DNA of 64,000 nucleotides, taken from Thraustochytrium sp. TN22. Lineage: Eukaryota; Sar; Bigyra; Thraustochytrida; Thraustochytriidae. The stretch covers positions 21,719 through 85,718 of the forward strand of contig JABLUY010000170.1 of assembly GCA_013306675.1 (NCBI GenBank). Reading direction: 5' to 3'. Positions within the stretch are counted from its first letter, which is position 1; each line of letters begins with the position of its first letter. Made by a program: the position numbers and the translations under genes. The notes under the pieces were generated by a model. It was not told the DNA's origin. It did not search any database and was given only the letters and a program-made list of their open reading frames with translations. Positions 18,001-59,256 of this stretch are shown here, in pieces.

Positions 18001-18485
18001 TCGCCGTCGAGACCCTGCCGTCGCGCGGCGGCACCGCCCTGCAGGCCGTCGCGCTCGAAGCCAGCAAGGAGTTCGAGGCCGCGCTCGACCGCTTCGTCGC
18101 CGCGCTGCTCGAGCGCAACCTCCCGGCGCTCCTCGCCTTCGTGCAGGAGGTCGACGCGCTCCTGCAGTCCTGCGAGCTCGCGCAGCTCGTCTATCACAAG
18201 CCGCGCGTGCAGCTAGCCGCCGTCCTCCAGGCCAACGCCGAGGCCGACCTGCGCGCCGGCCTGCGCTCCATCCGACACGAAGTCGAGGTCCAGCTCTCCA
18301 AAAATCCGCCCGTCTGCGCCATGGTGCTCACTTCCGTGAGAACCACCTTCCTCGACACCTACAAGCGATACGTGCACCTCATCGCCGACGGCTACGGCGA
18401 CATCGTCAAGCCCACACTCGAAGACGCCGCCTCCTTTGCGCGATCCGAACTGGGATCTGCCGGTGGCGACGCAGACGTCGTGTAA
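15090..18485 (+). CDS. SEC3: Exocyst complex subunit SEC3 (EXOC1)
   Basis: The protein is 1131 aa from the ATG at 15090. Exocyst tethers secretory vesicles to the plasma membrane, and SEC3 binds PI(4,5)P2 and Rho GTPases through an N-terminal PH-like domain. That domain is visible at about residues 85-245 (strands ending FKTRLFFVIKSLGDKAITQY). An acidic low-complexity linker (about 290-320) follows. Then comes LSGAEQDELLRILEAEG and the diagnostic Sec3 coiled coil near residue 420 (LEQVHEQLSGMDAWMANYNL, then KDIHKIENQNNRLQVQ). The remainder is the long helical rod. The open frame extends upstream without an ATG that suits the family. The last 278 codons (from 17649) and the 3' flank are duplicated about 10.3 kb downstream (27944-29040). 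Confidence 0.88.
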   Translation: MDGGRSGGGGAGFGLRRATLAAQPGAARRPGARQRRSSAGSLVSSGSEGSPRSGRSSQVTAASGRPRGGNRLALSFTSRAQENTTDWWEESEALLLHKLQGDVFQARNEQVVFLAKAMKLKKGAKLDKGELKRQLLVVTKSLSASKRTDLSLHVLTLKNWSVRSSHSLQSLRVVDGAPELPFSSSFRDSSLTLKLEFHGKTFKTRLFFVIKSLGDKAITQYTLLELCQRFFGFAPSMLNANLAELQLMATEERFLNRCTLFAPGASGSADRPTGGAQRPEREGAGGDTRDEVDDDDEDDEDEDEGDPAKAGRNQSQKSGGSRRSRNQGGAADDEERPVVELLSGAEQDELLRILEAEGLTGVATGRLSEEIQRRVQELEEETGSTLRQWENRGDSTDYISEAAAARGETPEVFDPIAVLVEQLEQVHEQLSGMDAWMANYNLELKTMRKDIHKIENQNNRLQVQARNHDSLRLHLATLLSHYAVSPGAVEVIDNLDAILRTDALNEVERGLKPASGAAPALERLCNTATELSLALAGKAHLRHLPRHERDDPAALSAKDAPFPEEHHLRAVQERVAELHEHIERFCGYVLFFISNRIKNNADSFRQTISAISSSDLAQLPHIVRQDTMHRTMAPYRALIAALQELEDDGFHKVVQVYVSDMGEAYGDVLRNFAGVLGKLALEAPETFEVAPSLSLQTSEEARIGAHEEERELAATLAKRAVATAFTSQRGLSLARAFAHTLEQIVPIIMDEQDFLGSVFYSMNEDGANAAVPGAENFTSRLTSDEAVRERNATLDKIFVGKGDIMTGLTALVQRANTRRDVAQIVLMYAETEALMLEFGKRSKFLRGLLMDAPSGLRPQLEAALRSWVEEQRSAVSNVRNTEFKTHPGVLSALRRLPRLVDMLTALWDEAAVRRRTLCPRETYDSRSTRFAENALGTGLDLLTTTVLQVAERLCAAQDSAADRLRVQNFHFAVETLPSRGGTALQAVALEASKEFEAALDRFVAALLERNLPALLAFVQEVDALLQSCELAQLVYHKPRVQLAAVLQANAEADLRAGLRSIRHEVEVQLSKNPPVCAMVLTSVRTTFLDTYKRYVHLIADGYGDIVKPTLEDAASFARSELGSAGGDADVV

Positions 18486-18949
18486 AGTACAAAAGGACTA
18501 AGACTTGGCAGCAGCAACCCAACACCACGCGCTTCGATCCTCCGGCCTGCATCATTCTTGCGCGAGCGACGAGAGAGCGGCGAGACCAAGTAAGTTAATC
18601 GGCGCTTGTTTGGCGAAGAGAGAGCAGCCATGCCTTGCCAACGTCAACGGCTCGGTCAGCCTTTCTGGAAGACAACTGCAAATGGCGCGAACTACTGGCA
18701 CCGGCACTGCGGTGGCCGTCGGCCGAGAAAACGGTCTCACAGATGCCAGTGGTTTTTTGGTTCAAGTCCTTGGTCACACATGATCAGAGTCAGGAGTCGT
18801 TGCGCACCGGACGAGGCGAGGCGACTCGGAGCCAAGCCGGGCCGGGCGGCAGGCAGGCAGAACAGAATCTCAACGCGAGCAACTACACTGCAAATCTGCA
18901 AGCCAAGGCTTCTCAGCTCGACAACATCGCAAGGGTCGCGCGCGCTGCA
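18486..18949. other. Intergenic region, SEC3 to J-dynamin-DUF4116 copy A
   Basis: The first part (SEC3 3' flank, from GGACTAAGACTTGGCAGCAG) recurs with indels at about 28800-29040. The last 60 bp, just before the ATG of copy A, recur upstream of copy B at about 23523-23583 but not upstream of copy C. No gene was seen. Confidence 0.55.
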
Positions 18950-21865
18950 ATGGCGGAGAGGCACGAGGCGCCTGACTGGGTGCGGGTGGACCTGACGGCG
19001 TACGAGGTGCTAGACTTAGACGGCGGCGCCGAGCACAGCAATGCGGAGGTGAGAGATGCGTACGAGACGATGCTTCGCAACTCCACTGCGCAGCAGGAGC
19101 GCGCGCGTTTTGGCGAGGCCTTCCAGACGCTCGAGACGGAGGCGCGCCGCAATGGCTATCGCCTCGCCTGCAGCATGCGGGATCAGTGGTCCGTGGCCTC
19201 CCAGAATGCCGAAAGCTCCGACCCAGTCGTGCACGGCGGCATCGCCGAGACGCTCTGCGCGCCCGACGCGCCGTACGCGCGCCTGCTGGACGCCGCGCTC
19301 AAGGTGCGCGGGAACTTCGAGCTGCAGCTGCCGCAGATCGTTGTCTGCGGCACGGAGAGCCAGGGCAAGTCGTCCACGCTCGAGCGCATCGCGATGCGCG
19401 ACATCTTCCCGCGCGACCGCAAGTTCTGCACCCGAATGCCCGTTCGCCTCATGCTGCGCACGAGCCGGCACCAGAACCAGGTCATCATTCGGCTCGTGAA
19501 CACCGAGACGGACGAAGTTCTGCGCGCATCGGAGCCGCAGATCTGCACGACGGGCGACCAGTCGGACGAGCCCTTCTCGTCACAGGTCGCGGAGCTCATC
19601 CGAGACTTCATCCGTGCCGAGCACCCGGACGACACGGGGCGCGCCGTGGTCATCGACCGCGAGGTGCAGATCGAGATCCGCGCGCCGGCGGTGCCCACGA
19701 TCGATCTTGTGGACCTGCCTGGCATCGTGCTCGTGCCTGAGCACGCGCGGGAAGCGACGATAGCGCTGACGCGACGCATGCTCGAGCAAGAGCACGTGCT
19801 TGTGCTGGCTGTTGTCTCAGGGCGCTCCGAGTCGCTGCACAACAATGGCATCTGGCCGCTGCTGCGTGAGAGCGGCAAAGAAGCAATCGTCGTGCTCACC
19901 AAGGTGGACCAGGAGGACGGCGACGAGGACTTCGCGGCAAGGCTCGCCCGAGACCCGTCCGTGTTTCCCGACGATGTTCCGGTTCACGCGGTGGTACCCG
20001 TGGTGAACCTTGACACGCGCAAGAAGAACGACGCAGCCGCGCTGCAGCAGTCATACTCCGCCGAGGAAACCACGCTTCGCGCCGTGTGCGAGGCGACCGG
20101 GGTGGAGTACGACCCACGCCAACACGGCATGGCGGGAGTACTGGAAGCGCTCAACGGGATGGTGCGCGAGTATATGCGGGACACGTGGGTCGATGCCGAG
20201 CTGCAGCGGTGCGAGCAGGAGCTCAAGCAACTCTTCACACAGCTGTGGGCGCTCGGCACTGCGCCGCGCGCTGTCAAGGAGAGCGCCCTGCGAGCCGAGC
20301 TCGAGCTTGGTCTCGCGGAGCTCAAGAAGCTCAGAACGTGCGATGTTCTCGCCGCCCTTGGGGGCCTGGGGCTTGAAGACGCGCACCCGCTGCCGGGAAG
20401 CGCGCCATTCATCGAGCGGATGGAGCTGGTCGACGAACTCGAAGCTTCGCTGGTCGCGAACATGGCAGAGACGATCTCGGAGGTGTGGCGCCGCTATAAG
20501 GAGCTCGCCAAGCGTGAGCTCGTGGAGGAGTCCGCGCTGCCGCTGCGCTTGGCTCGCTTCCCGGCAGTCGTAGAGCACGTGGACGGCGTGTTGGATGAAG
20601 CGTTCGACGCGGTGCATGCTCGCGTGGTGGAGCGCGCCACCCGTGTCGCGCGGTCGTGCCTTTCCGCTCTGATGACGGCGAGCGACCGCATTGATGCCAG
20701 ACAGTTCTACGAGGGCCTCGAGACTGGCATCGTGGGTGTTGTTGTGGGCGCCAGCGGACTCACACAAACTCTGCGCGATGCGTTTGCCGGAGGTTTGGGG
20801 GATATTGACCTGCAGGAGGAGCAGGATGCTGCAGCGCAACGTCGGCTGCTCGAGGACCGCATCGATGCGGTCTACGAGACGGCCAACGTGATCATGCATT
20901 TGCAAGACCGCGACGACCTTCCTGACGCTCTTGTTGCCATGCGCTGCCTGAGAGACGGCGGCCGCACGGCGGAGGTAAAGGAGGTGGTCTTGGGACGCAA
21001 CATACCGTCCGCGCTGCGCGACGTGCTCCTGGTCGGAGATACGGACTACGTGGTGGGGTGTCTTGCGAATTATTCTCCGGTGGAGCGGGCGCACAGCATC
21101 GCGAACCTCAGGTCTCGGAGATCCGCACTCAAGCTGATCGAATCCTACGACATGTGGGGGGATGGGAAGTATAATGACTGGGAAGGTTCCCTTTTGAAAG
21201 CGATGCCGAGATGCTCAGAGGTTTGGACTGACCGGCGCTTCATGATTGATGCTGCAGGGCGTCTCGGATATTTGCTGCAATTCACGTCGGATGAGCTGCG
21301 CGCGGACAGGGACTTCATGCTGGAGGCGGTCAAGCAGGACGGCTCGGTGCTCGTATACGCGTCGAAGAAGCTGCGCGCGGACAGGGATGTGGTGCTAGAG
21401 GCTGTCAAGCGGCACGGCTCGGCGCTCCGTCACGCTTCGAAGGAGCTGCGCGCGGACAGGGACGTAGTGCTTGAGGCTGTAAAGCAGCGGGGCTCGGCGC
21501 TCCGTTTCGCGTCGGGGGAGTTTCGCGCGGACAGAAACGTGGTGCTAGAGGCGGTCAAGAAGTACGGCCAGATGCTTCGATACGCGTCGAAGGAGCTGCG
21601 CGCGGACAGGGACGTGGTGCTGGAGGCGGTCAAGCAGCACGGCGCGGTGCTCCTATATGCGTCGCAGGAGCTGCGCGCGGACAGGGGCGTGGTGCTGGAG
21701 GCTGTCAAGCAGGACGGCCGGGCGCTCACAGACGCGTCGGAGGAGCTGCGCGCGGACAAGGACGTGGTGCTGGAGGCTGTCAAGCAGAGTGGAGCTGCAA
21801 TCATCTGTGCTTCTCAGGACCTGCAGAAGGACCCTGATGTACTTGCATCCCGTAATTCTAAGTGA
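18950..21865 (+). CDS. J-like / dynamin-type GTPase / DUF4116-repeat protein, copy A
   Basis: Copy A is 971 aa. Residues about 10-60 resemble a J domain (AYEVLDLD, then EVRDAYETMLRN and FGEAFQTLETEAR), but the HPD loop is replaced by NSTAQQ. A dynamin-family GTPase follows. G1 is GTESQGKSS (134-142); the G2 Thr lies in RKFCTRMPVR; G3 is DLPG (255-258); G4 is TKVD (317-320). Residues about 400-720 are helical and end in a GED-like helix (RRLLEDRIDAVYETANVI). From about 778 there are seven 25-residue DUF4116 units (ELRADRDVVLEAVKQ, then ALxYAS). A dynamin core suggests nucleotide-driven assembly or membrane remodelling; DUF4116 has no known function. The start is the ATG shared by all three copies. 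Copies A and C have the same C terminus; copies B and C are closer at the N terminus. Confidence 0.8.
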   Translation: MAERHEAPDWVRVDLTAYEVLDLDGGAEHSNAEVRDAYETMLRNSTAQQERARFGEAFQTLETEARRNGYRLACSMRDQWSVASQNAESSDPVVHGGIAETLCAPDAPYARLLDAALKVRGNFELQLPQIVVCGTESQGKSSTLERIAMRDIFPRDRKFCTRMPVRLMLRTSRHQNQVIIRLVNTETDEVLRASEPQICTTGDQSDEPFSSQVAELIRDFIRAEHPDDTGRAVVIDREVQIEIRAPAVPTIDLVDLPGIVLVPEHAREATIALTRRMLEQEHVLVLAVVSGRSESLHNNGIWPLLRESGKEAIVVLTKVDQEDGDEDFAARLARDPSVFPDDVPVHAVVPVVNLDTRKKNDAAALQQSYSAEETTLRAVCEATGVEYDPRQHGMAGVLEALNGMVREYMRDTWVDAELQRCEQELKQLFTQLWALGTAPRAVKESALRAELELGLAELKKLRTCDVLAALGGLGLEDAHPLPGSAPFIERMELVDELEASLVANMAETISEVWRRYKELAKRELVEESALPLRLARFPAVVEHVDGVLDEAFDAVHARVVERATRVARSCLSALMTASDRIDARQFYEGLETGIVGVVVGASGLTQTLRDAFAGGLGDIDLQEEQDAAAQRRLLEDRIDAVYETANVIMHLQDRDDLPDALVAMRCLRDGGRTAEVKEVVLGRNIPSALRDVLLVGDTDYVVGCLANYSPVERAHSIANLRSRRSALKLIESYDMWGDGKYNDWEGSLLKAMPRCSEVWTDRRFMIDAAGRLGYLLQFTSDELRADRDFMLEAVKQDGSVLVYASKKLRADRDVVLEAVKRHGSALRHASKELRADRDVVLEAVKQRGSALRFASGEFRADRNVVLEAVKKYGQMLRYASKELRADRDVVLEAVKQHGAVLLYASQELRADRGVVLEAVKQDGRALTDASEELRADKDVVLEAVKQSGAAIICASQDLQKDPDVLASRNSK
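21286..21810 (+). repeat. DUF4116 coding repeats of copy A (7 x 75 bp)
   Basis: Seven imperfect 75-bp units each encode a 25-residue DUF4116 half-repeat. The units differ at many positions (RHGSALRHAS, KYGQMLRYAS, HGAVLLYAS), so this array is older or more diverged than the one in copy B. Confidence 0.85.
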
Positions 21866-22025
21866 TACTCTCTTCTTTTTTGTCTCTCTGCCAGAAGGTG
21901 GAGGACGACTCGTACAACTCGGAGCAGGGCGATCGCCACTTGCAGAGCTCCAAGCAAGCAGGCAGGGGGGCGACGCGTCCGGTTCGCGCGCGTGGAGAGG
22001 CGCGGGCGCGGGGGAGGAGAGCGTG

Positions 22026-23360
22026 ATGTTGGGCCGCGCTGTGTCGGGCGGCACGGACGGGAGCGCTGGGGGTGGTTCGCGGTCGCGCGGATCGGCGCCG
22101 CCGCCGCTCCATGCGAGCAACTCGTTCACGGCGAGCTCGCTCGTGCCGTCCACGGCGGGCGGCGCGGCGGAGGAGGCCGAGCCGCGCTCGAGCTCTGGCG
22201 CGCACCGCATGCGGCTCACCGCCAAGGCCGGCAGCGCGACCGGCAGCAGCGTGGCCAGCGTCAGCAGCGCCCGGCACCAGCAAGGGGGGGCCAAGGCGGC
22301 GGACGAGGACGCTGCGGCCGAGGGCGGGGGCTTGCGGCCGGACGAGGTCGAGGTGCGCCGCCAGGTGTCCGAGGACTTTCGCCACGCCAGCAAGGGCGCC
22401 TACTTTGAGCCCAAGACCTCGGAGCTGCTGGAGCGCAACCTCGGCCGCATCGACTCTGCGATGGAGGCCAACGACATGGCCGCCTTTGGTACGTTTCACA
22501 ACATACACGTGACTTAGCTGAAGCGGCGGCTGATGGGTTGGTGTGCGCTGGCAGGTCACAACAAGCAGGATGTCTTGAGGGGGATTAGCGAGATCCGCAA
22601 GCGACAGGTGGACATTTTCCGCCACCAAATGCACCTCGAGTTCAGGTACGTGCGCAGACGCTGGTCCCTTGGAACGGTCGCTGACGAACGAGCGGGCGAG
22701 CGGGCGGCGCGCAGTCTGTCCATGGACGAGAACGAGGAGGAGAACAGCGACGCGGAGCAAAAGATCTTCTCGTCCGAAGGCTTCTCGGAGGAGTTTCAAG
22801 AAAAGTTCAAGAAGAAGGAGCTCGTCTTGGACGGCATCCACGGGATGTTGCAGGATCTGACCAAACAGCTGCAGGAGGTCAACTCGGCCAGCGTCGCGTC
22901 GTGTCGCACATGGCGGCCGATCCGAGCTTCACGGAGGACGCTCGCCCGCGTGGAGCGGAGGAGGCCGCTGCTGACCTCGGCTTCCGCGACATGTCAGACC
23001 ACGGGTGGGGGCTGCACGCGGAGTGACAGTGACTGGCTTGACTGGCGGACTGACTGTGGAAGTCCTGACATTGGCTATTGCTTTCCTTTCCTGTGTGGAA
23101 TCAACACGCGGACTGGCTGTGAAAGCAACGGCACCGACGATTCTTTTCCTTCGGCATCGACGGTTTCTTTCCTGTTATTTATTATGTGTACCAAATTACA
23201 AAGCACGTGCCGATCACTGTTTGGCACTGCCACCTCACGCGCTTCCATCGTAGCAAGAGCAACCATGGCTGCAAGTAGGTCGAGAGCTGCGCCGCTGAGT
23301 TCATTGCTACGCGAGCGACGGGACAGGGCAGGGACGAGGCAAAGACTGGCTCTGTTCTGA
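22026..23360 (+). CDS. CCDC28-like coiled-coil protein, copy 1 (frameshifted C terminus)
   Basis: This is a three-exon gene: exon 1 22026-22488, exon 2 22555-22645, exon 3 from 22715. Splicing restores one frame through AAFG|HNKQDVLRGI and LEF|SLSMDENEEE. The disordered N terminus is followed by LLERNLGRIDSAMEANDMAA, a linker with an acidic stretch, and a terminal helix (ILDGIHGMLQ-like, then LTKQLQEVN). This resembles CCDC28/DUF4061 proteins; the assignment is tentative. Relative to copy 2 there is a 5-nt duplication (GCGTC) near 22890-22900. After NSASV the frame shifts, so the last ~38 residues are lost and replaced by about 150 unrelated residues to a stop at 23360. It may be a decaying copy. 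The ATG overlaps a TGA as TGATG. Confidence 0.5.
22489..22554 (+). other. Intron 1 of CCDC28-like copy 1 (66 nt)
   Basis: The intron has a GTACGT donor and a GGCAG acceptor and is phase 1. Unspliced, the frame hits a stop at 22515-22517. The equivalent intron in copy 2 is 63 nt. Confidence 0.75.
22646..22714 (+). other. Intron 2 of CCDC28-like copy 1 (69 nt)
   Basis: The intron has a GTACGT donor and a CGCGCAG acceptor and is phase 2. Here it is 69 nt and frame-neutral if retained. In copy 2 it is 65 nt and not frame-neutral, while the flanking exons align exactly, which supports removal by splicing. Confidence 0.75.
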
Positions 23361-23583
23361 GAGTCAAGCGCTCACGCAACGACACCGATTGTAACAGCTC
23401 GAGACACCGGTGACCTTAGTGCTGCAGTGCAGTGCCACTGTGGCAGCTGGTTTTTCTGTTCATGTTCACATCGAGTTGATCAGAACAGATCAGGCCCGGG
23501 GGCCCGGCCGGACGCGTGCAAGGACAAATCTGCAAGCCAAGGCTTCTCAGCTCGACAACACCGCAAGGGTCGCGCGCGCTGCG

Positions 23584-26500
23584 ATGGCGGAGGGGCACGA
23601 GGCGCCTGACTGGGTGCGGGTGGACCTGACGGCGTACGAGGTGCTAGACTTGGACGGCAGCGCCGAGCACAGCGATGAGGAGGTGAGAGAGGCGTACGAG
23701 ACGAAGCTTCGCAACTCCACTGCGCAGCAGGAGCGCGCGCGCTTTGGCGAGGCCTTCCGGACGCTCGAGACGGAGGCGCGCCGCAATGGCTATCGCCTGG
23801 CCTGCAGCATGCAGGATCAGTGGTCCGTGGCCTCCCAGAATGCCGAGAGCTCCGACGCAGTCGTGCACGGCGGCATCGCCGAGACGCTCTGCGCGCCTGA
23901 CGCGCCGTACGCGCGCCTGCTGGACGCCGCGCTCAAGGTGCGCGGGAACTTTGAACTGCAGCTGCCGCAGATCGTCGTCTGCGGCACGGAGAGCCAGGGC
24001 AAGTCGTCCACGCTCGAGCGCATCGCGATGCGCGATATCTTCCCGCGCGACCGCAAGTTCTGCACCCGAATGCCCGTTCGCCTCATGCTGCGCACGAGCC
24101 GGCACCAGAACCAGGTCATCATTCGGCTCGTGAGCACCGAGACGGACGAAGTTCTGCGCGCATCGGAGCCGCAGATCTGCACGACGGGCGACCAGTCGGA
24201 CGAGCCCTTCTCGTCACAGGTCGCGGAGCTCATCCGAGACTTCATCCGTGCCGAGCACCCGGACGACACGGGGCGCGCCGTGGTCATCGACCGCGAGGTG
24301 CAGATCGAGATCCGCGCGCCGGCGGTGCCCACGATCGATCTTGTGGACCTGCTTGGCATCGTGCTCGCGCCTGAGCACGCGCGGGAAGCGACGATAGCGC
24401 TGACGCGACGCATGCTCGAGCAAGAGCACGTGCTTGTGCTGGCTGTTGTCTCAGGCCGCTCCGAGTCGCTGCACAACAATGGCATCTGGCCGCTGCTGCG
24501 TGAGAGCGGCAAAGAAGCCATCGTCGTGCTCACCAAGGTGGACCAGGAGGACGGCGACGAGGACTTCGCGGCAAGGCTCGCCCGAGACCCGTCCGTATTT
24601 CCCGACGATGTCCCGGTCCACGCGGTGGTACCCGTGGTGAACCTCGACACGCGCAAGAAGAACGACGCAGCCGCGCTGCGGCAGTCGTACTCCGCCGAGG
24701 AAACCACGCTTCGCGCCGTGTGCGAGGCGACCGGCGTGGAGTACGACCCGCGCCAACACGGCATGGCGGGAGTTCTGGAAGCGCTAAACGGGATGGTGCG
24801 CGAGTATATGCGGGACACGTGGGTCGATGCCGAGCTGCAGCGGTGCGAGCAGGAGCTCAAGCAACTCTTCACGCAGCTTTGGGCGCTCGGCACTGCGTCG
24901 CGCGCCGTCACGGAGAGCGCCCTGCGAGCCGAGCTCGAGCTTGGTCTCGCGGAGCTCAAGAAGCTCAGAACGTGCGATGTTCTCGCCGCCCTTGGGGGCC
25001 TGGGGCTCGAGGATGCGCAGCCACTGCCGGCAAGCGCGCCATTCATCGAGCGGATGGAGTTGGTCGACGAACTCGAAGCTTCGCTGGTCGCGAACATGGC
25101 AGAGACGATCTCGGAGGTGTGGCGCCGCTATAAGGAGCTCGCCAAGCGTGAGCTCGTCGAGGAGTCCGCGCTGCCGCTGCGCTTGGCTCGGTTCTCGGCA
25201 ATCGCAGAGCACGTGGACGGCGTGTTGGATGAAGCGTTCGACGCGGTGCATGCTCGCGTGGTGGAGCGTGCCACCCGTGTCGCGCGGTCGTGCCTTTCCG
25301 CTCTGATGACGGCGAGCGACCGCATTGATGCCAGACACTTCTACGAGGGCCTTGAGACCGGCATCGTGGGTGTTGTTGTGGGCGCCAGCGGACTCACACA
25401 GACCCTGCGCGATGCGTTTGCCGGAGGTTTGGGGGATATCGACCTGCAGGAGGAGCATGATGCCGCGGCGCAACGTCGGCTGCTCGAGGACCACATCGAT
25501 GCGGTGTACGAGACTGCCAACGTGCTCGTGCATTTGCAAGGCCGCGACGACCTTCCGGAAGCCCTGGTTGCCATGCGCGGCCTGAGAGATGGCGGCCACA
25601 CGGCGGAGGTAGAGGGGGTTGTGTCGGAAGGCATGCTACCGTCCGCGCTGCGCGACGTGCTCCTGGTCGGAGATACGGACTACGTGGCGGAGTGTCTTGC
25701 GAATCGGCAAAATGTAGAGCGAGCACACAGCGTCACGAATCTCAAGTCCCGGAGATCCGCACTCAAGCTGGTCAAATCCTGCAAAGGGGAGAATTTGCGA
25801 GTTTCATCCCTTTTGAAAATGATGCCGAGATGCTCAGATCTTTGGACTGACCGGCGCTTCATCATCGATGCTACAGGGCGTCTCGGATCTTTGCTGCAAT
25901 TCACGTCGGATGAGCTGCGCGCAGACAGAGATGTAGTGCTGGGGGCGGTCAAGCAGAACGGCAGGGCGCTCGGACACGCGTCGGAGGAGCTGCGCGCGGA
26001 CAGGGAGGTGGTGCTGGAGGCTGTCAAGCAGGACGGCTCCGCGCTCGTACACGCGTCGCAGGAGCTGCGCGCGGACAGGGACGTGGTACTGGAGGCGGTC
26101 AAGCAGAACGGCTCAGCGCTCCAGTACGCGTCGCAGGAGCTGCGCGCCGACAGGGACGTGGTACTGGAGGCGGTCAAGCAGAACGGCTCAGCGCTCCAGT
26201 ACGCGTCGCAGGAGCTGCGCGCCGACAGGGACGTGGTACTGGAGGCGGTCAAGCAGAACGGCTCAGCGCTCCAGTACGCGTCGCAGGAGCTGCGCGCCGA
26301 CAGGGACGTGGTACTGGAGGCGGTCAAGCAGAACGGCTCAGCGCTCCAGTACGCGTCGCAGGAGCTGCGCGCCGACAGGGACGTGGTACTGGAGGCGGTC
26401 AAGCAGAACGGCTCAGCGCTCCAGTACGCGTCGCAGGAGCTGCGCGCCGACAGGGACGTGGTACTGGAGGCGGTCAAGCAGAACGGCTCAGCGCTCCAGT

Positions 26501-27837
26501 ACGCGTCGCAGGAGCTGCGCGCCGACAGGGACGTGGTACTGGAGGCGGTCAAGCAGAACGGCTCAGCGCTCCAGTACGCGTCGCAGGAGCTGCGCGCCGA
26601 CAGGGACGTGGTACTGGAGGCGGTCAAGCAGAACGGCTCAGCGCTCCAGTACGCGTCGCAGGAGCTGCGCGCCGACAGGGACGTGGTGCTGGATGCTGTC
26701 AAGCAGAACGGCCGGGCGCTCCAGTACGCGTCGGAGGAGCTGCGCGCGGATGGGGACGTGGTGCTGACGGCGCTCCATTACGCGTCGGACGAGCTGCGCG
26801 CGGACAGGGACTTCATGCTGGAGGCGGCCAAGCGGTACGGTCCGGCGCTCGAATACGCGTCGGAGGAGCTGTGTACGGACAGGGCCATTGTGCTGGAGGC
26901 TATCAAGCAGAACGGTCGGGCGCTCCAGTACGCGCCAGAGGAGCTGCGCGCGGACAGGGCCGTGGTGCTGACGGCGGTCCTTCACGCGTCGGAGGAGTTG
27001 CGCGCGGACAGGGACTTCATGCTGAAGGCGGTCATGCGGAATGGCTCGGCGCTCGAATACGCGTCGGAGGAGCTGCGCGCGGATAGAGACGTGGTGCTGG
27101 AGGCTGTTAAACGGCAGGGCTCGGCCCTCCGTTTCGCGTCGGAGAAGTTGCGCGCGGACAAGGACTTTAGGCTCGAATTCGCGTCGGAGGAGCTGCGTGC
27201 GGACCGGGGCTTCGTGCTCGAGGCGATGAAGCAGAACAGAGGCGCGTTCGGATACGCGTCAGCCGGGCTACGCGCGGACAGGGACTTCATGCTGGAGGCG
27301 GTCAAGCAGGACGGCAGGGTGCTCTATTATGCGTCGAAGAAGCTGCGCGCGGACAGGGACGTGGTGCTGGAGGCGGTCAAGCAGAACGGCTCGGCGCTCC
27401 AGTTCGCGTCCCAGGAGCTGCGCGTGGACAGGGACGTGGTGCTGGGGGCGGTCAAGCAGGACGGCACGCTGCTCTGTTATGCGTTGCAGGAGCTGCGCGC
27501 GGACAGGGGCGTGGTGCTGGAGGCTGTCAAGCAGAACGGCGAGGCGCTCTATCTCGCGTCCCAGGAGCTGCGCGTTGACAGGGACTTCATGCTGGAGGCG
27601 GTCAAGCAGAGCGGCTCGGCGCTCGAACACGCGTCGGAGAAGCTGCGCGCGGACAGGGACGTGGTGCTGGAGGCGGTCAAGCAGAACGGCTCAGCGCTCC
27701 AGTACGCGTCGCAGGAGCTGCGCGCGGACAGGGACGTGGTGCTGGAGGCTGTCAAGCAGAATGGAGCTGCAATCTGGTATGCTTCCAAGGAGCTGCACAA
27801 GGACCCTGATGTACTTGCATCCTGTAGTTCGAAGTGA
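23584..27837 (+). CDS. J-like / dynamin-type GTPase / DUF4116-repeat protein, copy B (expanded)
   Basis: Copy B is 1417 aa, the longest of the three paralogues. The J-like N terminus and GTPase half are nearly identical to copies A and C: G1 GTESQGKSS, G4 TKVD. G3 reads DLLG instead of DLPG at residues 255-258; Pro257 has become Leu through CCT to CTT at 24352-24354. The helical stalk is conserved up to about residue 720. The C-terminal half is an array of about 26 DUF4116 units, at least three shortened in frame (for example DVVLTALHYAS). Eight consecutive units are essentially identical at the DNA level. The C terminus (GAAIWYASKELHKDPDVL) differs from A and C. The start is the shared ATG. 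The 3' flank is joined to a SEC3 fragment rather than to a CCDC28-like gene. Confidence 0.8.
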   Translation: MAEGHEAPDWVRVDLTAYEVLDLDGSAEHSDEEVREAYETKLRNSTAQQERARFGEAFRTLETEARRNGYRLACSMQDQWSVASQNAESSDAVVHGGIAETLCAPDAPYARLLDAALKVRGNFELQLPQIVVCGTESQGKSSTLERIAMRDIFPRDRKFCTRMPVRLMLRTSRHQNQVIIRLVSTETDEVLRASEPQICTTGDQSDEPFSSQVAELIRDFIRAEHPDDTGRAVVIDREVQIEIRAPAVPTIDLVDLLGIVLAPEHAREATIALTRRMLEQEHVLVLAVVSGRSESLHNNGIWPLLRESGKEAIVVLTKVDQEDGDEDFAARLARDPSVFPDDVPVHAVVPVVNLDTRKKNDAAALRQSYSAEETTLRAVCEATGVEYDPRQHGMAGVLEALNGMVREYMRDTWVDAELQRCEQELKQLFTQLWALGTASRAVTESALRAELELGLAELKKLRTCDVLAALGGLGLEDAQPLPASAPFIERMELVDELEASLVANMAETISEVWRRYKELAKRELVEESALPLRLARFSAIAEHVDGVLDEAFDAVHARVVERATRVARSCLSALMTASDRIDARHFYEGLETGIVGVVVGASGLTQTLRDAFAGGLGDIDLQEEHDAAAQRRLLEDHIDAVYETANVLVHLQGRDDLPEALVAMRGLRDGGHTAEVEGVVSEGMLPSALRDVLLVGDTDYVAECLANRQNVERAHSVTNLKSRRSALKLVKSCKGENLRVSSLLKMMPRCSDLWTDRRFIIDATGRLGSLLQFTSDELRADRDVVLGAVKQNGRALGHASEELRADREVVLEAVKQDGSALVHASQELRADRDVVLEAVKQNGSALQYASQELRADRDVVLEAVKQNGSALQYASQELRADRDVVLEAVKQNGSALQYASQELRADRDVVLEAVKQNGSALQYASQELRADRDVVLEAVKQNGSALQYASQELRADRDVVLEAVKQNGSALQYASQELRADRDVVLEAVKQNGSALQYASQELRADRDVVLEAVKQNGSALQYASQELRADRDVVLDAVKQNGRALQYASEELRADGDVVLTALHYASDELRADRDFMLEAAKRYGPALEYASEELCTDRAIVLEAIKQNGRALQYAPEELRADRAVVLTAVLHASEELRADRDFMLKAVMRNGSALEYASEELRADRDVVLEAVKRQGSALRFASEKLRADKDFRLEFASEELRADRGFVLEAMKQNRGAFGYASAGLRADRDFMLEAVKQDGRVLYYASKKLRADRDVVLEAVKQNGSALQFASQELRVDRDVVLGAVKQDGTLLCYALQELRADRGVVLEAVKQNGEALYLASQELRVDRDFMLEAVKQSGSALEHASEKLRADRDVVLEAVKQNGSALQYASQELRADRDVVLEAVKQNGAAIWYASKELHKDPDVLASCSSK
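26074..26685 (+). repeat. Perfect 75-bp coding minisatellite, 8 copies, in DUF4116 array
   Basis: The GTACTGG landmark recurs at 26086, 26161, 26236, 26311, 26386, 26461, 26536 and 26611, exactly 75 bp apart. I saw no substitutions between units. All share the synonymous choices GCCGAC, GTACTG and GGCTCA, whereas neighbouring units in the same gene mostly use GCGGAC, GTGCTG and GGCTCG. Each unit encodes ELRADRDVVLEAVKQ followed by NGSALQYASQ. The number of copies is probably polymorphic. Confidence 0.92.
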
Positions 27838-27892
27838 TACTCTCTTCTTTTGTCTCTCTGCCAAAAGGTGGAGGACTTGTACAACTCGGAGC

Positions 27893-28807
27893 ATGGCGAT
27901 TGTCACTTGCAGAGCTCCAAGCCAGCAGGCAGAAGGCGACGCGTCCGGCCTGCGCCCGCAGCTCGAGGCGGCGCTGCGCTCGTGGGTCGAGGAGCAGCGC
28001 TCCGCCGTCTCCAACGTGCGCAACACGGAGTTCAAGACGCACCCGGGCGTGCTCTCCGCGCTGCGGCGCCTGCCGCGCCTCGTCGACATGCTCACGGCGC
28101 TCTGGGACGAGGCCGCCGTGCGCCGCCGCACGCTCTGCCCGCGCGAGACCTATGACTCGCGCTCCACGCGGTTCGCCGAGAACGCGCTCGGCACGGGCCT
28201 CGACCTGCTCACCACCACCGTGCTGCAGGTCGCGGAGCGCCTCTGCGCGGCGCAGGACTCCGCCGCGGACCGCCTGCGCGTGCAGAACTTCCACTTCGCC
28301 GTCGAGACCCTGCCGTCGCGCGGCGGCACCGCCCTGCAGGCCGTCGCGCTCGAAGCCAGCAAGGAGTTCGAGGCCGCGCTCGACCGCTTCGTCGCCGCGC
28401 TGCTCGAGCGCAACCTCCCGGCGCTCCTCGCCTTCGTGCAGGAGGTCGACGCGCTCCTGCAGTCCTGCGAGCTCGCGCAGCTCGTCTACCACAAGCCGCG
28501 CGTGCAGCTAGCCGCCGTCCTCCAGGCCAACGCCGAGGCCGACCTGCGCGCCGGCCTGCGCTCCATCCGACACGAAGTCGAGGTCCAGCTCTCCAAAAAC
28601 CCGCCCGTCTGCGCCATGGTGCTCGCTTCCGTGAGAACCACCTTCCTCGACACCTACAAGCGATACGTGCACCTCATCGCCGACGGCTACGGCGACATCG
28701 TCAAGCCCACACTCGAAGACGCCGCCTCCTTTGCGCGATCCGAACTAAGGATCTGCCGGTGGCGACGCAAACGTCGTGTAAAGTACAAGTTTCAAACAAA
28801 GGACTAA
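27893..28807 (+). pseudogene. Displaced SEC3 3' fragment with chimeric 5' end
   Basis: From 27944 the DNA is a near-identical copy of SEC3 from 17649 to its end, covering the last 278 codons of the helical rod. Only scattered single-base differences were seen (for example CTC to CTC-preserving changes and ACT to GCT near 28626). Upstream sequence comes from the flank of the J-dynamin-DUF4116 gene. The switch point lies in a shared CGCGTCCGG/CCCTCCGG stretch. An ATG at 27893 opens a 304-aa frame that starts in flank sequence (MAIVTCRAPSQQAEGDASG) and runs into the SEC3 part. Near 28746 one extra base (CTAAGG against CTGGG) changes the last residues. It lacks the PH-like and coiled-coil regions, so any product could not act as full SEC3. 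Confidence 0.8.
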
Positions 28808-29406
28808 GACTTGGCAGCAGCAACCCATCACCGCGCGCTTCGATCCTGCGCGAGCGACGAGACAGCGGCGTCGCGGCGAGACCAAGTATTCGGCGCTTGT
28901 TTGAGAGCAGCCAACGTCGCCCAAGGTCGCGGCGGCCGGGCGGCGGCGGCCTGGCGGCTCGGTCGGCCTTTCTGGAAGACAACTGCAAACGGCGCGAACC
29001 ACTGGCAGTCTGGCACCGGCACTGGCCGAGGAAAAGGATCGATCGCCCGCACTCTCGTTGCTCGACCGATGTTCGGCGCCTCGTGCTTACGTGCCGTCGG
29101 CCGCAGCGACGCAGCTCCACTGAGAAGCAGCCTGCCAGGCCTGCCTGCCTTCCAGCCCGGCACGGACCCACGGAGCACTGCTTGGTCAGGGCTGATCAAG
29201 GCTGTCACGGTGCCAGTGCCGGTGCCAGTGCTTACTTAAAAAATGCCCACACAATCCGACACTGTGAAAGTCATCGAAAGAAAGTGGTGATGGAGTTCAA
29301 AGTTTGCGTCTCGCCTGGCTGATTTATGCTGATGAAAAGAGCACGTGGCCCGGGGTCAGCGTGACTGCAAATCCGCAACGGCGATTCCGAGTCGGAGCGC
29401 GCTGCG
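28808..29406. other. Intergenic region before copy C, partly duplicated SEC3 3' flank
   Basis: About 28800-29040 aligns with indels to the SEC3 3' flank at 18490-18720. The rest (29041-29406) does not match the upstream regions of copies A or B, so copy C may have a different promoter. No gene was seen. Confidence 0.5.
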
Positions 29407-32400
29407 ATGGCGGAGGGGCACGAGGCGCCTGACTGGGTGCGGGTGGACCTGACGGCGTACGAGGTGCTAGACTTGGACGGCAGCGCCGAGCACAGCGATG
29501 AGGAGGTGAGAGAGGCGTACGAGACGAAGCTTCGTAACTCCACTGCCCAGCAGGAGCGCGCGCGCTTTGGCGAGGCCTTCCGGACGCTCGAGACGGAGGC
29601 GCGCCGCAATGGCTATCGCCTGGCCTGCAGCATGCAGGATCAGTGGTCCGTGGCCTCCCAGAATGCCGAGAGCTCCGACGCAGTCGTGCACGGCGGCATC
29701 GCCGAGACGCTCTGCGCGCCTGATGCGCCGTACGCGCGCCTGCTGGACGCCGCGCTCAAGGTGCGCGGGAACTTTGAACTGCAGCTGCCGCAGATCGTCG
29801 TTTGCGGCACGGAGAGCCAGGGCAAGTCGTCCACGCTCGAGCGTATCGCGATGCGCGACATCTTCCCGCGCGACCGCAAGTTCTGCACCCGAATGCCCGT
29901 TCGCCTCATGCTGCGCACGAGCCGGCACCAGAACCAGGTCATCATTCGGCTCGTGAGCACCGAGACGGACGAAGTTCTGCGCGCATCGGAGCCGCAGATC
30001 TGCACGACGGGCGACCAGTCGGACGAGCCCTTCTCGTCACAGGTCGCGGAGCTCATCCGAGACTTCATCCGTGCCGAGCACCCGGACGACACGGGGCGCG
30101 CCGTGGTCATCGATCGCGAGGTGCAGATCGAGATCCGCGCGCCGGCGGTGCCCACGATCGATCTTGTGGACCTGCCTGGCATCGTGCTCGCGCCTGAGCA
30201 CGCGCGGGAAGCGACGATAGCGCTGACGCGACGCATGCTCGAGCAAGAACACGTGCTTGTGCTGGCTGTTGTCTCAGGGCGCTCCGAGTCGCTGCACAAC
30301 AATGGCATCTGGCCGCTGCTGCGTGAGAGCGGCAAAGAAGCCATCGTCGTGCTCACCAAGGTGGACCAGGAGGACGGCGACGAGGACTTCGCGGCAAGGC
30401 TCGCCCGAGACCCGTCCGTGTTTCCCGACGATGTCCCGGTCCACGCGGTGGTACCCGTGGTGAACCTCGACACGCGCAAGAAGAACGACGCAGCCGCGCT
30501 GCGGCAGTCGTACTCCGCCGAGGAGACCACGCTTCGCGCCGTGTGCGAGGCGACCGGCGTGGAGTACGACCCACGCCAACACGGCATGGCGGGAGTACTG
30601 GAAGCGCTCAACGCGATGGTACGCGAGTACATGCGGGACACGTGGGTCGATGCCGAGCTGCAGCGGTGCGAGCAGGAGCTCAAGCAACTCTTCACGCAGC
30701 TTTGGGCGCTCGGCACTGCGCCGCGCGCTGTCACGGAGAGCGCCCTGCGAGCCGAGCTCGAGCTTGGTCTCGCGGAGCTCAAGAAGCTCAGAACGTGCGA
30801 TGTTCTCGCCGCCCTTGGGGGCCTGGGGCTCGAAGATGCGCAGCCACTGCCGGCAAGAGCGCCATTCATCGAGCGGATGGAGCTAGTCGACGAACTCGAA
30901 GCTTCGCTGGTCGCGAACATGGCAGAGACGATCTCCGAGGTGTGGCGCCGCTATAAGGAGCTCGCCAAGCGTGAGCTCGTCGAGGAGTCCGCGCTGCCGC
31001 TGCGCTTGGCTCGCTTCCCGGCAGTCGAAGAGCACGTGGACGGCGTGTTGGATGAAGCGTTCGACGCGGTGCATGCTCGCGTGGTGGAGCGCGCCACCCG
31101 TGTCGCGCGGTCGTGCCTTTCAGCTCTGATGACGGCGAGCGACCGCATCGATGCCAGACACTTCTACGAGGGCCTTGAGACCGGCATCGTGGGTGTTGTT
31201 GTGGGCGCCAGCCGGCTCACACAGACCCTGCGCGATGCGTTTGCCGGAGGTTTGGAGGATATCGACCTGCAGGAGGAGCATGATGCTGCGGCGCAACGCC
31301 GGCTGCTCGAGGACCGCATCGATGCGGTGTACGAGACGGCCAACGTGCTCGTGCATTTGAAAGACCGCGACGACCTTCCTGAAGCCCTTGTTGCCATGCG
31401 CTGCCTGAGAGATGGCGGCCGCACGGCGGAGGTAAAGAAGGTGGTGTCGGGAGGCGAGATACCGTCCGCGCTGCGCGACGTGCTCCTGGTCGGAGATACG
31501 GACTACGTGGCGGAGTGTCTTGCGATTGAAGTACTGGTGGAGCGGGCGCACAGCATCGCGAACCTCAGGTCTCGGAGATCCGCACTCAAGCTGGTCAAAT
31601 CCCGCGACGTGTGGAGGGATAGGGCTTATGATGACTGGGAAGATGATGACTGGGAAGATTCCCTTTTGAAAGCGATTCCGAGATGCTCAGAGGTTTGGTC
31701 TGACCGGCGCTTCATCATTGATGCTACAGGGTGTCTCGGATCTTTGCTGCAATTCACGTCGGATGAGCTGCGCGCGGACAGGGACGTGGTGCTGGGGGCG
31801 ATAAAGCAGGATGACTTGGCGCTCAAATACGCGTCGGAGGAGCTGCGCGCGGACAAGGACTTTATGCTTGAGGTGGTCAAGCAGAGCACGATTGCGCTCG
31901 GATACGCGTCGGAGGAGCTGCGCGCGGACAGGGACGTGGTGCTGGAGGCGGTCAAACTGAACAGTATGGCGTTAGAATTTGTGTCGAAGGAGCTGCGCGC
32001 GGACAGGGACGTGGTGCTGGAGGCGGTCAAGCAGAGCGGCCGGGCGCTCAAATACGCGGAGGAGGAGCTGCGCGCGGACAGGGACGTGGTGCTAGCGGCG
32101 GTCAAGCAGAGCGGCTGGGCGCTTCTAGACGCGTCGGAAGAGCTGCGCGCGGACAGGGACGTGGTGCTGGAGGCGGTCAAGCAGAACCCCGTGGTGTTCG
32201 AAGACGTGTCGGAGGAGCTGCGCGCGGACAGGGACGTGATGCTGGATGCGGTCAAGCAGGACGGCTACGCGCTCGCATACGCGTCGGAGGAGTTGCGCGC
32301 GGACAGGGGCGTGGTGCTGGAGGCGGTCAAGCAGAAGTGCTGGGCGCTCGGATACGCGTCGGAGGAGCTGCGCGCGGACAGAGACGTGGTGCTGGAGGCT

Positions 32401-32787
32401 GCCAAGCAGGACGGCGGGGCGCTCAGATACGCGTCGCAGGAGCTGCGCGCGGATAAGCGCTTCATGCTGAAGGCTGTCAAGCAGGACGGCTACGCGCTCC
32501 AATACGCGTCGCAGGAGCTGCGCGCGGACAGGGACGTGGTGCTGGAGGCGGTCAAGCAGGACAGCGGGGCGCTCCAGTGCGCGTCGGAGGAGCTGCGCGC
32601 GGACAGGGACGTGGTGCTGGAGGCGGTAAAGCAGGAGGGCGGGGCGCTCCAGTTCGCGTCGGAGGAGCTGCGCGCGGACAAGGACGTGGTGCTGGAGGCT
32701 GTCAAGCAGAGTGGAGCTGCAATCATCTGTGCTTCTCAGGACCTGCAGAAGGACCCTGATGTACTTGCATCCCGTAATTCTAAGTGA
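29407..32787 (+). CDS. J-like / dynamin-type GTPase / DUF4116-repeat protein, copy C
   Basis: Copy C is 1126 aa. It has the same degenerate J-like N terminus (EEVREAYETKLRNSTAQQ), dynamin GTPase motifs (GTESQGKSS; DLPG intact; TKVD) and helical stalk as copies A and B. A short acidic insertion (DDWEDDDWED) precedes the repeats. Thirteen DUF4116 units follow, each distinct (QDDLALKYAS, QSTIALGYAS, QNPVVFEDVS, QKCWALGYAS), and the C terminus GAAIICASQDLQKDPDVL is shared with copy A. The sequence immediately downstream leads into CCDC28-like copy 2, as in copy A, suggesting A and C keep the ancestral gene order. The ATG at 29407 is the start of the open frame and supports the same start in A and B. 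Confidence 0.82.
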   Translation: MAEGHEAPDWVRVDLTAYEVLDLDGSAEHSDEEVREAYETKLRNSTAQQERARFGEAFRTLETEARRNGYRLACSMQDQWSVASQNAESSDAVVHGGIAETLCAPDAPYARLLDAALKVRGNFELQLPQIVVCGTESQGKSSTLERIAMRDIFPRDRKFCTRMPVRLMLRTSRHQNQVIIRLVSTETDEVLRASEPQICTTGDQSDEPFSSQVAELIRDFIRAEHPDDTGRAVVIDREVQIEIRAPAVPTIDLVDLPGIVLAPEHAREATIALTRRMLEQEHVLVLAVVSGRSESLHNNGIWPLLRESGKEAIVVLTKVDQEDGDEDFAARLARDPSVFPDDVPVHAVVPVVNLDTRKKNDAAALRQSYSAEETTLRAVCEATGVEYDPRQHGMAGVLEALNAMVREYMRDTWVDAELQRCEQELKQLFTQLWALGTAPRAVTESALRAELELGLAELKKLRTCDVLAALGGLGLEDAQPLPARAPFIERMELVDELEASLVANMAETISEVWRRYKELAKRELVEESALPLRLARFPAVEEHVDGVLDEAFDAVHARVVERATRVARSCLSALMTASDRIDARHFYEGLETGIVGVVVGASRLTQTLRDAFAGGLEDIDLQEEHDAAAQRRLLEDRIDAVYETANVLVHLKDRDDLPEALVAMRCLRDGGRTAEVKKVVSGGEIPSALRDVLLVGDTDYVAECLAIEVLVERAHSIANLRSRRSALKLVKSRDVWRDRAYDDWEDDDWEDSLLKAIPRCSEVWSDRRFIIDATGCLGSLLQFTSDELRADRDVVLGAIKQDDLALKYASEELRADKDFMLEVVKQSTIALGYASEELRADRDVVLEAVKLNSMALEFVSKELRADRDVVLEAVKQSGRALKYAEEELRADRDVVLAAVKQSGWALLDASEELRADRDVVLEAVKQNPVVFEDVSEELRADRDVMLDAVKQDGYALAYASEELRADRGVVLEAVKQKCWALGYASEELRADRDVVLEAAKQDGGALRYASQELRADKRFMLKAVKQDGYALQYASQELRADRDVVLEAVKQDSGALQCASEELRADRDVVLEAVKQEGGALQFASEELRADKDVVLEAVKQSGAAIICASQDLQKDPDVLASRNSK
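31760..32730 (+). repeat. DUF4116 coding repeats of copy C (13 x 75 bp)
   Basis: Thirteen imperfect 75-bp units keep the ELRADRDVVLEAVKQ half nearly constant while the second half (positions about 16-25) varies strongly between units. This constant/variable layout suggests that the variable half is the ligand- or partner-facing surface; that is inference. Confidence 0.8.
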
Positions 32788-55258: not shown

Positions 55259-56185
55259 TGGCCGGCGGCCCGCCGTCGCGACGCCTTGCGTCCTGACGTG
55301 ACCACCGTAATATAGAGACGCGCGAGTTCCATGTTGACTTTTATTTGCTTTTTGCCAGAGCCTTGGATTTCGTTTGACTGTGAGCGAGACGCGCTCGACG
55401 TTTGTTGACCCTCGGCAACGGCCGCGCCACCCATTCTCGTCTGACATTGCGCTCCAGCAGATTGTAGTCAACAAGAACGGCGCCATCATCGCGCCGTCAA
55501 ACGGCCCGCCGTCGCGACGCCTTGCGTCCTGCCGTGACCACGCGAGTTCCACGTTGACTTTGGTCTCTGCTTTGCCAGAGCCTTGGATCATCATGTTTGT
55601 TGGGTTTCATTTGAGTAACTAGTACGTTAGACGAGCTCGACGTAGTTGGCCGGGAAGATGCCCTCGGCACCGCTCAAGAAGTCGCTCAACCTGGAGCCCA
55701 ACTCGAGCCGCGTGGAGATCAACAAGAATGGCGCCGTCATCGCGCCGTTCAACTACACGGATGACGACGAGTGATGGCCGGCGGCCCGCCGTCGCGACGC
55801 CTTGCGTCCTGACGTGACCACCGTAATATAGAGACGCGCGAGTTCCATGTTGACTTTTATTTGCTTTTTGCCAGAGCCTTGGATTTCGTTTGACTGTGAG
55901 CGAGACGCGCTCGACGTTTGTTGACCCTCGGCAACGGCCGCGCCACCCATTCTCGTCTGACATTGCGCTCCAGCAGATTGTAGTCAACAAGAACGGCGCC
56001 ATCATCGCGCCGTCAAACGGCCCGCCGTCGCGACGCCTTGCGTCCTGCCGTGACCACGCGAGTTCCACGTTGACTTTGGTCTCTGCTTTGCCAGAGCCTT
56101 GGATCATCATGTTTGTTGGATTTCATTTGAGTGACTGGTAAGTTAGACGAGCTCGACGTAGTTGGCCGGGAAGATGCCCTCGGCA
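55154..56185. repeat. 516-bp tandem duplication (two units) spanning two convergent gene ends
   Basis: Unit 1 (55154-55669) and unit 2 (55670-56185) are nearly identical, with a few substitutions near 55610-55625 against 56126-56141. Each unit carries the 3' end of the 77-aa gene, the convergent spacer, and the last 16 codons of the SH3 gene on the other strand. The intact SH3 gene joins unit 2; the intact 77-aa gene joins unit 1. So 55623-55669 is an orphan SH3-gene tail and 55670-55774 an orphan 77-aa-gene tail. Each unit also contains an internal degenerate duplication of AACAAGAAnGGCGCC with its flank. Confidence 0.9.
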
Positions 56186-58614: not shown

Positions 58615-59256
58615 GCCGCGCTCGTACCGGTTCGTCTGCTGCTCTCGGATCCTGAGGCGCAGCAAGCCGCGCCGCGCGCCCGCTCGCCTGCTCGCCCGCT
58701 CGCCGCTCGCCCGCCCGCCCGCTCGCCCGCCCGCTCGCTCGCCGGGCCGCCGGGTCGCCGCGCTGCGCGGGGGCCGCGCGTCGCCTGCCGCCGCGCGCGT
58801 CTCGGCTTTGGCCGCCCGGCGGCGGAGGCGACCGAGTCGTGCAGTTCGAGCGCGGCGGCGCTGACTCTGCCGGGGCCGCTGGCACTTCAACCGAAGAACT
58901 TGGGAAGCCGGTCGATCTTCCCAGACTTCAATCGTCAGACACAATCGCAGCCAAGATGATTTGAGGAGCGAAGTTCAACGAACCACAGAACCCACTCCGG
59001 GTCGCTCCGGGCGAAAGAGCGGGCCCTCGAGGCGGTGTCAAGGTGGCAAGGTTAGCGCGAGAATGGAGCAGGAGCCGGAGAACAGCGCGGGTGGGGCTCC
59101 GGCTTTCGGCGACGTCTTGGGATGGGAGCCGCAGGGGGATGGATGGCTTGGGAGGCCTCTAACCAACACTTGGGATCGTGATGCGTGGGTTAGGCTTTGA
59201 CAGCACTGCACATGGAGAACAAAAGACAAGTCTACCTTTTCATGCGTGGTTGATGA
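58615..59256. other. Intergenic region, SH3 gene promoter side
   Basis: It holds a GCTCGCCCGCC-type repeat (about 58680-58745) and no supportable gene. A short frame at 58961-59200 has no recognisable features and is not called. Confidence 0.4.

Follow-up and report, generated by a model that had tools for sequence, protein, structure and literature searches.

Among the described proteins nearest to those considered here are dynamins of the Vps1/Drp1 branch and Mx with other immune dynamin-like GTPases, of which Mx binds its targets by stalk loops and not by a repeat array. Fungal NOD-like receptors (NLRs) offer a second comparison: HNWD/het-d/het-e and the TPR and ANK NLRs are described as small families that evolve in concert, with a conserved NTPase core, repeats that are nearly identical and a few hypervariable repeat positions (PMC1805685, PMC4986451, PMC2873952). 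Here we describe three tandem genes of Thraustochytrium sp. TN22 that lie within a stretch of 64,000 nucleotides (GCA_013306675.1, contig JABLUY010000170.1, positions 21,719 to 85,718; hereafter the window) and that each join a J-like N terminus, a dynamin GTPase domain, a predicted helical region and an array of DUF4116 units (J-dynamins). Variation among the array units is concentrated at unit positions 19 and 22, then 17, with amino-acid change above the array-wide silent rate, which is a new observation. An earlier sequence-only reading of the window knew of no system described with these domains in this order, and likewise no paper that appears to describe a J-like/dynamin/DUF4116 architecture was found in the open-access full-text literature; what one article (PMC12699882) says of dynamin is unrelated to it.

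Results

Three J-dynamin genes with DUF4116 arrays

All three genes of the window were found to be uninterrupted open reading frames (ORFs), arranged in tandem as follows.

18950 to 21865, forward strand: copy 1, with J-like domain, dynamin GTPase domain, helical region and 7 DUF4116 units; 971 amino acids (aa), ATG at 18950
23584 to 27837, forward strand: copy 2, domain order as in copy 1, 26 DUF4116 units; 1417 aa
29407 to 32787, forward strand: copy 3, domain order as in copy 1, 13 DUF4116 units; 1126 aa, stop at 32787
21290 to 21862, forward strand: DUF4116 array of copy 1, 7 units and a partial unit
25909 to 27834, forward strand: DUF4116 array of copy 2, 26 units (23 of 25 aa, the others of 18, 18 and 15 aa) and a partial end unit
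31762 to 32784, forward strand: DUF4116 array of copy 3, 13 units and a partial unit

Pfam DUF4116 (PF13475) was matched over its gathering score in copies 1, 2 and 3 (E 2e-72, 1.1e-270 and 3e-132, respectively), and Dynamin_N over its gathering cut-off in each (E 4e-18, 5.7e-16 and 1.2e-17). The GTPase half thus matches dynamin and the repeats match DUF4116, both significantly, as the sequence-only reading had expected, and the domain order that it gave for the three genes was borne out, with fitting ATG and stop coordinates. The repeat unit is 25 aa long, and the Pfam model, of 49 positions, spans about two units. Counted in 25-aa repeats plus a partial end unit, the 7, about 26 and 13 units of that reading were correct, with the exact number uncertain because near-identical arrays can be miscounted in assemblies. 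Matches to AfsA, SpoVR_C and DUF1667 inside the repeats were put down to chance, the sequence there being repetitive.

Variable positions of the DUF4116 unit

The array of copy 3 was modelled by AlphaFold2 (AF2), as were the other regions, from window sequences only. The array model is a regular solenoid with three helices per 25-aa unit and a predicted local distance difference test score (pLDDT) mostly above 80. The helices occupy unit positions 1-4, 7-16 and 18-23, and positions 19 and 22 fall in one short helix. This model agrees with an earlier prediction of DUF4116 as an alpha-solenoid (PMC8078820). A repeat profile compared to PDB sequences retrieved nothing better than E 0.19, and Foldseek with the full model gave one match under E 1e-3, to a designed protein. 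Weaker Foldseek matches to generic alpha solenoids (importins, AP2 and PUF) were not taken as homology.

For analysis of variation, 5 of 48 units that were not 25 aa in length were dropped and the remaining 43 were collapsed to 36 distinct units. Among these, position 19 was found to have 14 residue types and position 22 to have 13, and positions 6 and 11 were invariant. The proportion of nonsynonymous differences (pN) over the array-wide proportion of synonymous differences (pS) was 2.09 (1.64 to 2.80) at position 19, 1.87 (1.42 to 2.56) at position 22 and 1.44 (1.14 to 1.83) at position 17; the intervals, obtained by bootstrap over the units of a separate profile scan (39 distinct 25-mers), are rough because the units are not independent. 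The variability profile of the window units was correlated with that of the units of a paralogous array on C21 of the same genome (rho 0.49, p 0.013).

Arrays of mycoplasma, viruses and plasmids

A similar profile was observed in a DUF4116 cluster of Mycoplasmopsis cynos, in which positions 19 and 22 were again the most variable (pN over array-wide pS of 2.09 and 1.67), with ratios above 1 also at positions 1, 8 and 9. The M. cynos profile was correlated with that of the window units (rho 0.63, p 7e-4). The M. cynos cluster (L075, 7158-17077) consists of four adjacent DUF4116 array genes, the last cut by the end of the stretch, that are at most 55% identical to the protist array.

Viral contigs gave 101 DUF4116 matches, of which the best 80 were kept; with up to 2 kb beyond each match these yielded 79 array loci. 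Arrays that shared at least 30% of their units with an earlier array or had fewer than 5 distinct units were dropped, leaving 46 loci, or 24 in a strict control. The five most variable positions included 19 in 38 of the 46 arrays, 22 likewise in 38, and 17 in 30. Since the viral units had been picked by profile, the control was run with strict 25-aa stepping; position 19 was then in the top five in 21 of 24 arrays, position 22 in 19 and both in 17, compared to 3.3% expected by chance. Across 186 viral units, position 19 was Y, W, L or F in 106 and position 22 was E, Q, K or R in 132. Searched with the dynamin family profile in all six frames (E up to 10), the 79 viral loci gave no match. In 24 of the 25 viral loci listed, the first unit begins no more than about ten residues after a methionine.

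Several of the viral genes were observed in defined settings. Tandem clusters of 3 and 4 DUF4116 genes are present on viral contigs L080 (1971-4461) and L111 (1042-3711); the clustered genes begin alike (MINENST..., MIDE.ST...), and the L080 cluster adjoins a phage-type helicase/primase gene. On L034 (4195-5870), a DUF4116 gene is downstream of lysis genes, and the ORF just before it has no Pfam match. The L034 contig is related to Fusobacterium phages, to which all 4 of its phage matches point (identity in part as high as 96%). As the Fusobacterium phage array has 2 units only, its correlation was not used.

GTPase domain and J-like N terminus

The domains that precede the arrays are located as follows.

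29407 to 29631, forward strand: J-like domain of copy 3, lacking HPD (hhalign against DnaJ domains of the same genome, with shuffle control)
18950 to 19174 and 23584 to 23808, forward strand: equivalents of the J-like domain in copies 1 and 2
19337 to 19903, forward strand: Dynamin_N GTPase domain of copy 1 (Pfam)
23971 to 24537, forward strand: Dynamin_N GTPase domain of copy 2 (Pfam)
24352 to 24354, forward strand: G3 codon of copy 2, DLLG, with DLPG in the other 8 paralogues (alignment)
29794 to 30360, forward strand: Dynamin_N GTPase domain of copy 3 (Pfam stretch), with G1-G4 motifs in the family alignment
30586 to 31566, forward strand: predicted helical region of copy 3, like a bundle signalling element (BSE) and stalk, from low-confidence models; no homologue of solved structure detected

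Family members elsewhere in the genome bring the number of loci to nine (see below), and PF00350 was matched over cut-off in all nine. In the alignment of this family, the full set of GTPase motifs that had been noted from the sequence was found: G1 as GTESQGKSS, G2 as Thr161, G3 as DLPG and G4 as TKVD, with the DLLG of copy 2 compatible with DxxG. By profile, the closest solved GTPases were Vps1 (6def, E 1.5e-20) and DRP1 (3w6n, E 6e-18), followed by dynamin-1. Mx was much weaker (E 2e-6), and GBP was absent among the 51 matches listed for the GTPase profile against PDB. The ratio dN/dS of the GTPase domain was 0.05 to 0.20 between window copies, indicative of purifying selection. No Pfam match to Dynamin_M, PH or GED was found in the family proteins, nor, in the window copies, to a NACHT or NB-ARC NTPase at E up to 1; the NTPase present is dynamin.

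Pfam DnaJ was not reached by any N terminus of the family. When the nine N-termini were compared by hhalign to 10 DnaJ domains of the same genome (those of 30 fetched loci with a clean HPD-centred segment), the probability was 94.7 and the score 42.8 over 56 aligned columns; among 50 column shuffles the highest score was 17.2, and the reversed control scored 7.3. The HPD motif is absent from 9 of 9 N-termini, and the hhalign gap takes out the HPD loop together with the last part of helix II. In 4 of the 9 loci there was a match to RPT (PF13446), a J-clan relative, that fell short of the cut-off; DnaJ chains of PDB were reached by profile only at E 0.2 to 1. Searched with the J-like domain of copy 3 at E up to 1, the genome gave a match at each of the nine family loci and none elsewhere. 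By these profile alignments, the family N terminus is homologous to the J domain with HPD lost, and the J-like assignment of the sequence-only reading is supported; lacking the HPD loop, the domain is not a canonical Hsp70 co-chaperone.

Homogenized cores and divergent arrays

Two further features of the cluster bear on how the copies diverged.

26059 to 26658, forward strand: eight consecutive 75-bp units of copy 2, protein-identical, each 0 to 1 nucleotide from the first
27944 to 28847, forward strand: duplicated Sec3 3' end and flank, 98.0% identical to its source at 17649-18541; upstream of copy 3, i.e. between copies 2 and 3

In 150-nucleotide windows, the three copies were found to be 94 to 100% identical up to residue 600, 92 to 95% at residues 601-650 and 88 to 93% at residues 651-700, the stretch that precedes the DUF4116 array. 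Copies 1 and 3 are alike in both flanks (98.0% upstream, including the Sec3 3' end, and 93.1% downstream, including the array end). Within the core, copies 2 and 3 were the closest pair in 8 of 14 windows and tied in 2. Such a mosaic is suggestive of exchange among the copies. The duplicated Sec3 3' end is a footprint of the tandem duplication. The eight protein-identical units of copy 2 amount to 200 aa, which places copy 2 among proteins of high internal conservation as defined in PMC4986451 (identity of 85% or more among repeats, over 100 aa or more). Values of dN/dS for the linker were discarded, since the comparison took no account of the unequal length of the copies in this stretch and simply paired positions.

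A family of nine loci

A genome search with copy 3 revealed nine J-dynamin loci: the three of the window (C78), four on C21 and one each on C23 and C95. The family first noted as three copies thus has three in tandem in the window and nine loci genome-wide. Three weaker matches (C321, C397 and C82) were also detected, that on C321 being a plain dynamin-type ORF. DUF4116 tails are present at five of the nine loci (the three window copies, one C21 gene and C95). Two C21 genes and the C23 gene have no tail and end about where the array would start, and the remaining C21 gene (L028, 557-3547, forward strand) has another tail, a charged, possibly coiled-coil stretch followed by a domain without Pfam match. 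The C95 locus (L031, 572-3762) is in two parts in different frames, as would follow from an intron or a frameshift, and has a small number of DUF4116 units and a tandem repeat rich in proline; only its first piece was taken into the family alignment. A DUF4116 array without dynamin was found in a 291-aa frame on C417. In the family tree, 4 of 7 inner branches are open, and a single DUF4116-bearing clade is neither supported nor refuted. No J-dynamin relative was detected in prokaryote genomes and IMG/VR, where copy 3 retrieved a DUF4116 match only, an absence that is weak evidence because the scans used few peptide patterns.

Genomic setting

The genome comprises 37.9 Mb in 453 contigs, and GC content over the window is 60 to 74%. 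By Pfam, the three-gene cluster is flanked by Sec3 (exocyst) upstream and a DNA2-type helicase-nuclease downstream. On the reverse strand, the window also carries a 672-aa AIG1/GIMAP-like GTPase ORF (61878-63896; Pfam AIG1 E 3.6e-10), of a class some of whose plant and animal members act in immunity, and a 933-aa ORF with several SH3 domains (56143-58944). Nothing was matched by Rfam within the window. The same genome encodes, at full length, a polyunsaturated fatty acid synthase of PfaA type (2539.7 bits including in-frame neighbours; cut-off 1010.1), an enzyme suggestive of a thraustochytrid. None of 14 control genomes exceeded the cut-off of this profile.

Discussion

We tentatively favour the view, based on sequence, models and analogy, that the J-dynamin/DUF4116 proteins are recognition or defence GTPases with a variable C-terminal recognition surface. 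A recognition receptor is favoured because the hallmarks of fungal NLR repeats recur here: an NTPase core that is conserved, recent repeats that are nearly identical, exchange among paralogues and a few hypervariable positions on one face. The GTPases are probably cytosolic, and the likeliest purpose, we infer, is defence or non-self recognition. In such a protein, the side chains of positions 17, 19 and 22 of successive units would form one strip along the solenoid, and the varying ligand bound by this strip would most likely be a foreign protein or a competing one. Ligand binding may lift inhibition or concentrate the proteins, upon which the GTPase and helical region would, in the manner of dynamins, assemble on a membrane or on the target. 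Without HPD, the J-like domain cannot drive Hsp70 by the usual route and is probably a private module, either regulatory or for protein-protein contact. The logic would be that of fungal NLRs whose repeats are highly conserved, except that dynamin replaces the STAND (signal transduction ATPase with numerous domains) NTPase.

A number of results weigh against this view. When silent counts specific to each site were used in a parsimony test of the 36 units, position 19 gave p 0.02 (uncorrected for 25 sites), positions 22 (p 0.59) and 17 (p 0.68) were not significant, and no position was significant in copy 3 alone (p 0.15 at position 19); support for positive selection from variation in this stricter test is marginal. 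In the C21 array, only position 19 was above the silent rate (1.23), with position 22 not above it (1.04) and position 17 below it (0.57). Neither the C417 array (p 0.16) nor that of an E. coli plasmid (p 0.21) was significantly correlated with the window profile. The PADLOC library of prokaryote defence gave weak matches only: LeoA (E 0.043 for the first 718 residues of copy 3 and 2.8e-4 for one C21 paralogue), PtuA (E 0.014) and a CARF model (E 0.037). With the profile of the helical region, no dynamin and no solved stalk were found in PDB, and for the GTPase and helical half AF2 gave ten-residue pLDDT means of 22 to 52 and, in a second model, a mean of 39.0. Structure prediction thus served for the array but returned the GTPase and helical half at low confidence. 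Of the helical stalk put forward by the sequence-only reading, long helices were recovered, which appear only in these low-confidence models; matches to Dynamin_M, GED or a PDB dynamin were not. That reading had also proposed a variable recognition surface coupled to the GTPase within a defence or membrane system, and the surface gains from the variation at positions 19, 22 and 17, of which 19 and 22 are foremost in M. cynos and viral arrays too, and from divergent tails beside homogenized cores, but the defence part does not.

A less probable account is that these genes are ordinary trafficking or organelle-dividing dynamin paralogues, duplicated in one lineage, whose DUF4116 tail is a scaffold for self ligands such as adaptors or cargo. 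The GTPase is indeed nearest to Vps1 and Drp1 and not to Mx or GBP (no GBP being among the matches listed), the core is under strong purifying selection, solenoids often act as scaffolds, and Sec3 of the exocyst adjoins the cluster, though neighbours say little in eukaryotes. A self ligand, however, needs neither hypervariable positions nor near-identical recent expansions that differ between tandem copies, and the tail is missing or different in 4 of 9 paralogues. Less probable again, and in our judgement unlikely, is neutral minisatellite turnover, by which 75-bp units would expand and drift, exposed positions 17, 19 and 22 would be unconstrained and the arrays would carry little specific information. 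The homogeneity of the 75-bp tandem units, the shortened units of copy 2 (18, 18 and 15 aa) and the mostly non-significant site-specific test are as this account would have it, and positions that vary alike in unrelated arrays are expected if they are merely exposed. Relaxed constraint predicts pN equal to pS, but 1.7 to 2.1 times the array-wide pS was found at positions 19 and 22 in the window and in M. cynos, with bootstrap intervals above 1, and the residues at positions 19 (Y/W/L/F) and 22 (E/Q/K/R) of the 186 viral units are non-random.

If the J-dynamins are recognition GTPases, a dynamin with an NLR-like evolving tail would be a new receptor design, in a field, protist immunity and self/non-self recognition, that is largely uncharted. 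Whether or not they are, DUF4116, a widespread repeat of unassigned function, gains a testable role, with positions 17, 19 and 22 as the predicted binding code in viruses, mycoplasmas and protists. A broader proposition, which we hold to be doubtful, is that DUF4116 is a general hypervariable recognition repeat of phages, bacteria and protists, built of a 25-aa three-helix unit with a 17/19/22 strip, and that its union here with dynamin represents an undescribed receptor class in which a dynamin motor stands in for the STAND NTPase of NLRs.

Compared to known systems, the J-dynamins have the GTPase domain and G1-G4 motifs in common with the Vps1/Drp1 branch of the dynamin family, and differ from it by the added N-terminal J-like domain, the C-terminal DUF4116 array and the lack of Pfam matches to Dynamin_M, PH and GED. 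Mx and other immune dynamin-like GTPases likewise combine a dynamin-type GTPase with a proposed target-binding end, but Mx is far behind Vps1/Drp1 by profile (E 2e-6). The J profile of DnaJ proteins aligns with the family N terminus over 56 columns, with the HPD loop deleted in the J-dynamins. The bacterial and viral DUF4116 array proteins (PHROG 31839) have the same 25-aa unit as the window arrays, most variable at positions 19 and 22 in M. cynos and most viral arrays, and differ in that the 79 viral loci, in six frames, have no dynamin-profile match. With fungal NLRs, the J-dynamins share a conserved NTPase core, near-identical repeats, the concerted evolution of a small family and a few hypervariable repeat positions; unlike them, they have a dynamin and not a NACHT/NB-ARC engine, DUF4116 and not WD, TPR or ANK repeats, and are known from sequence alone.

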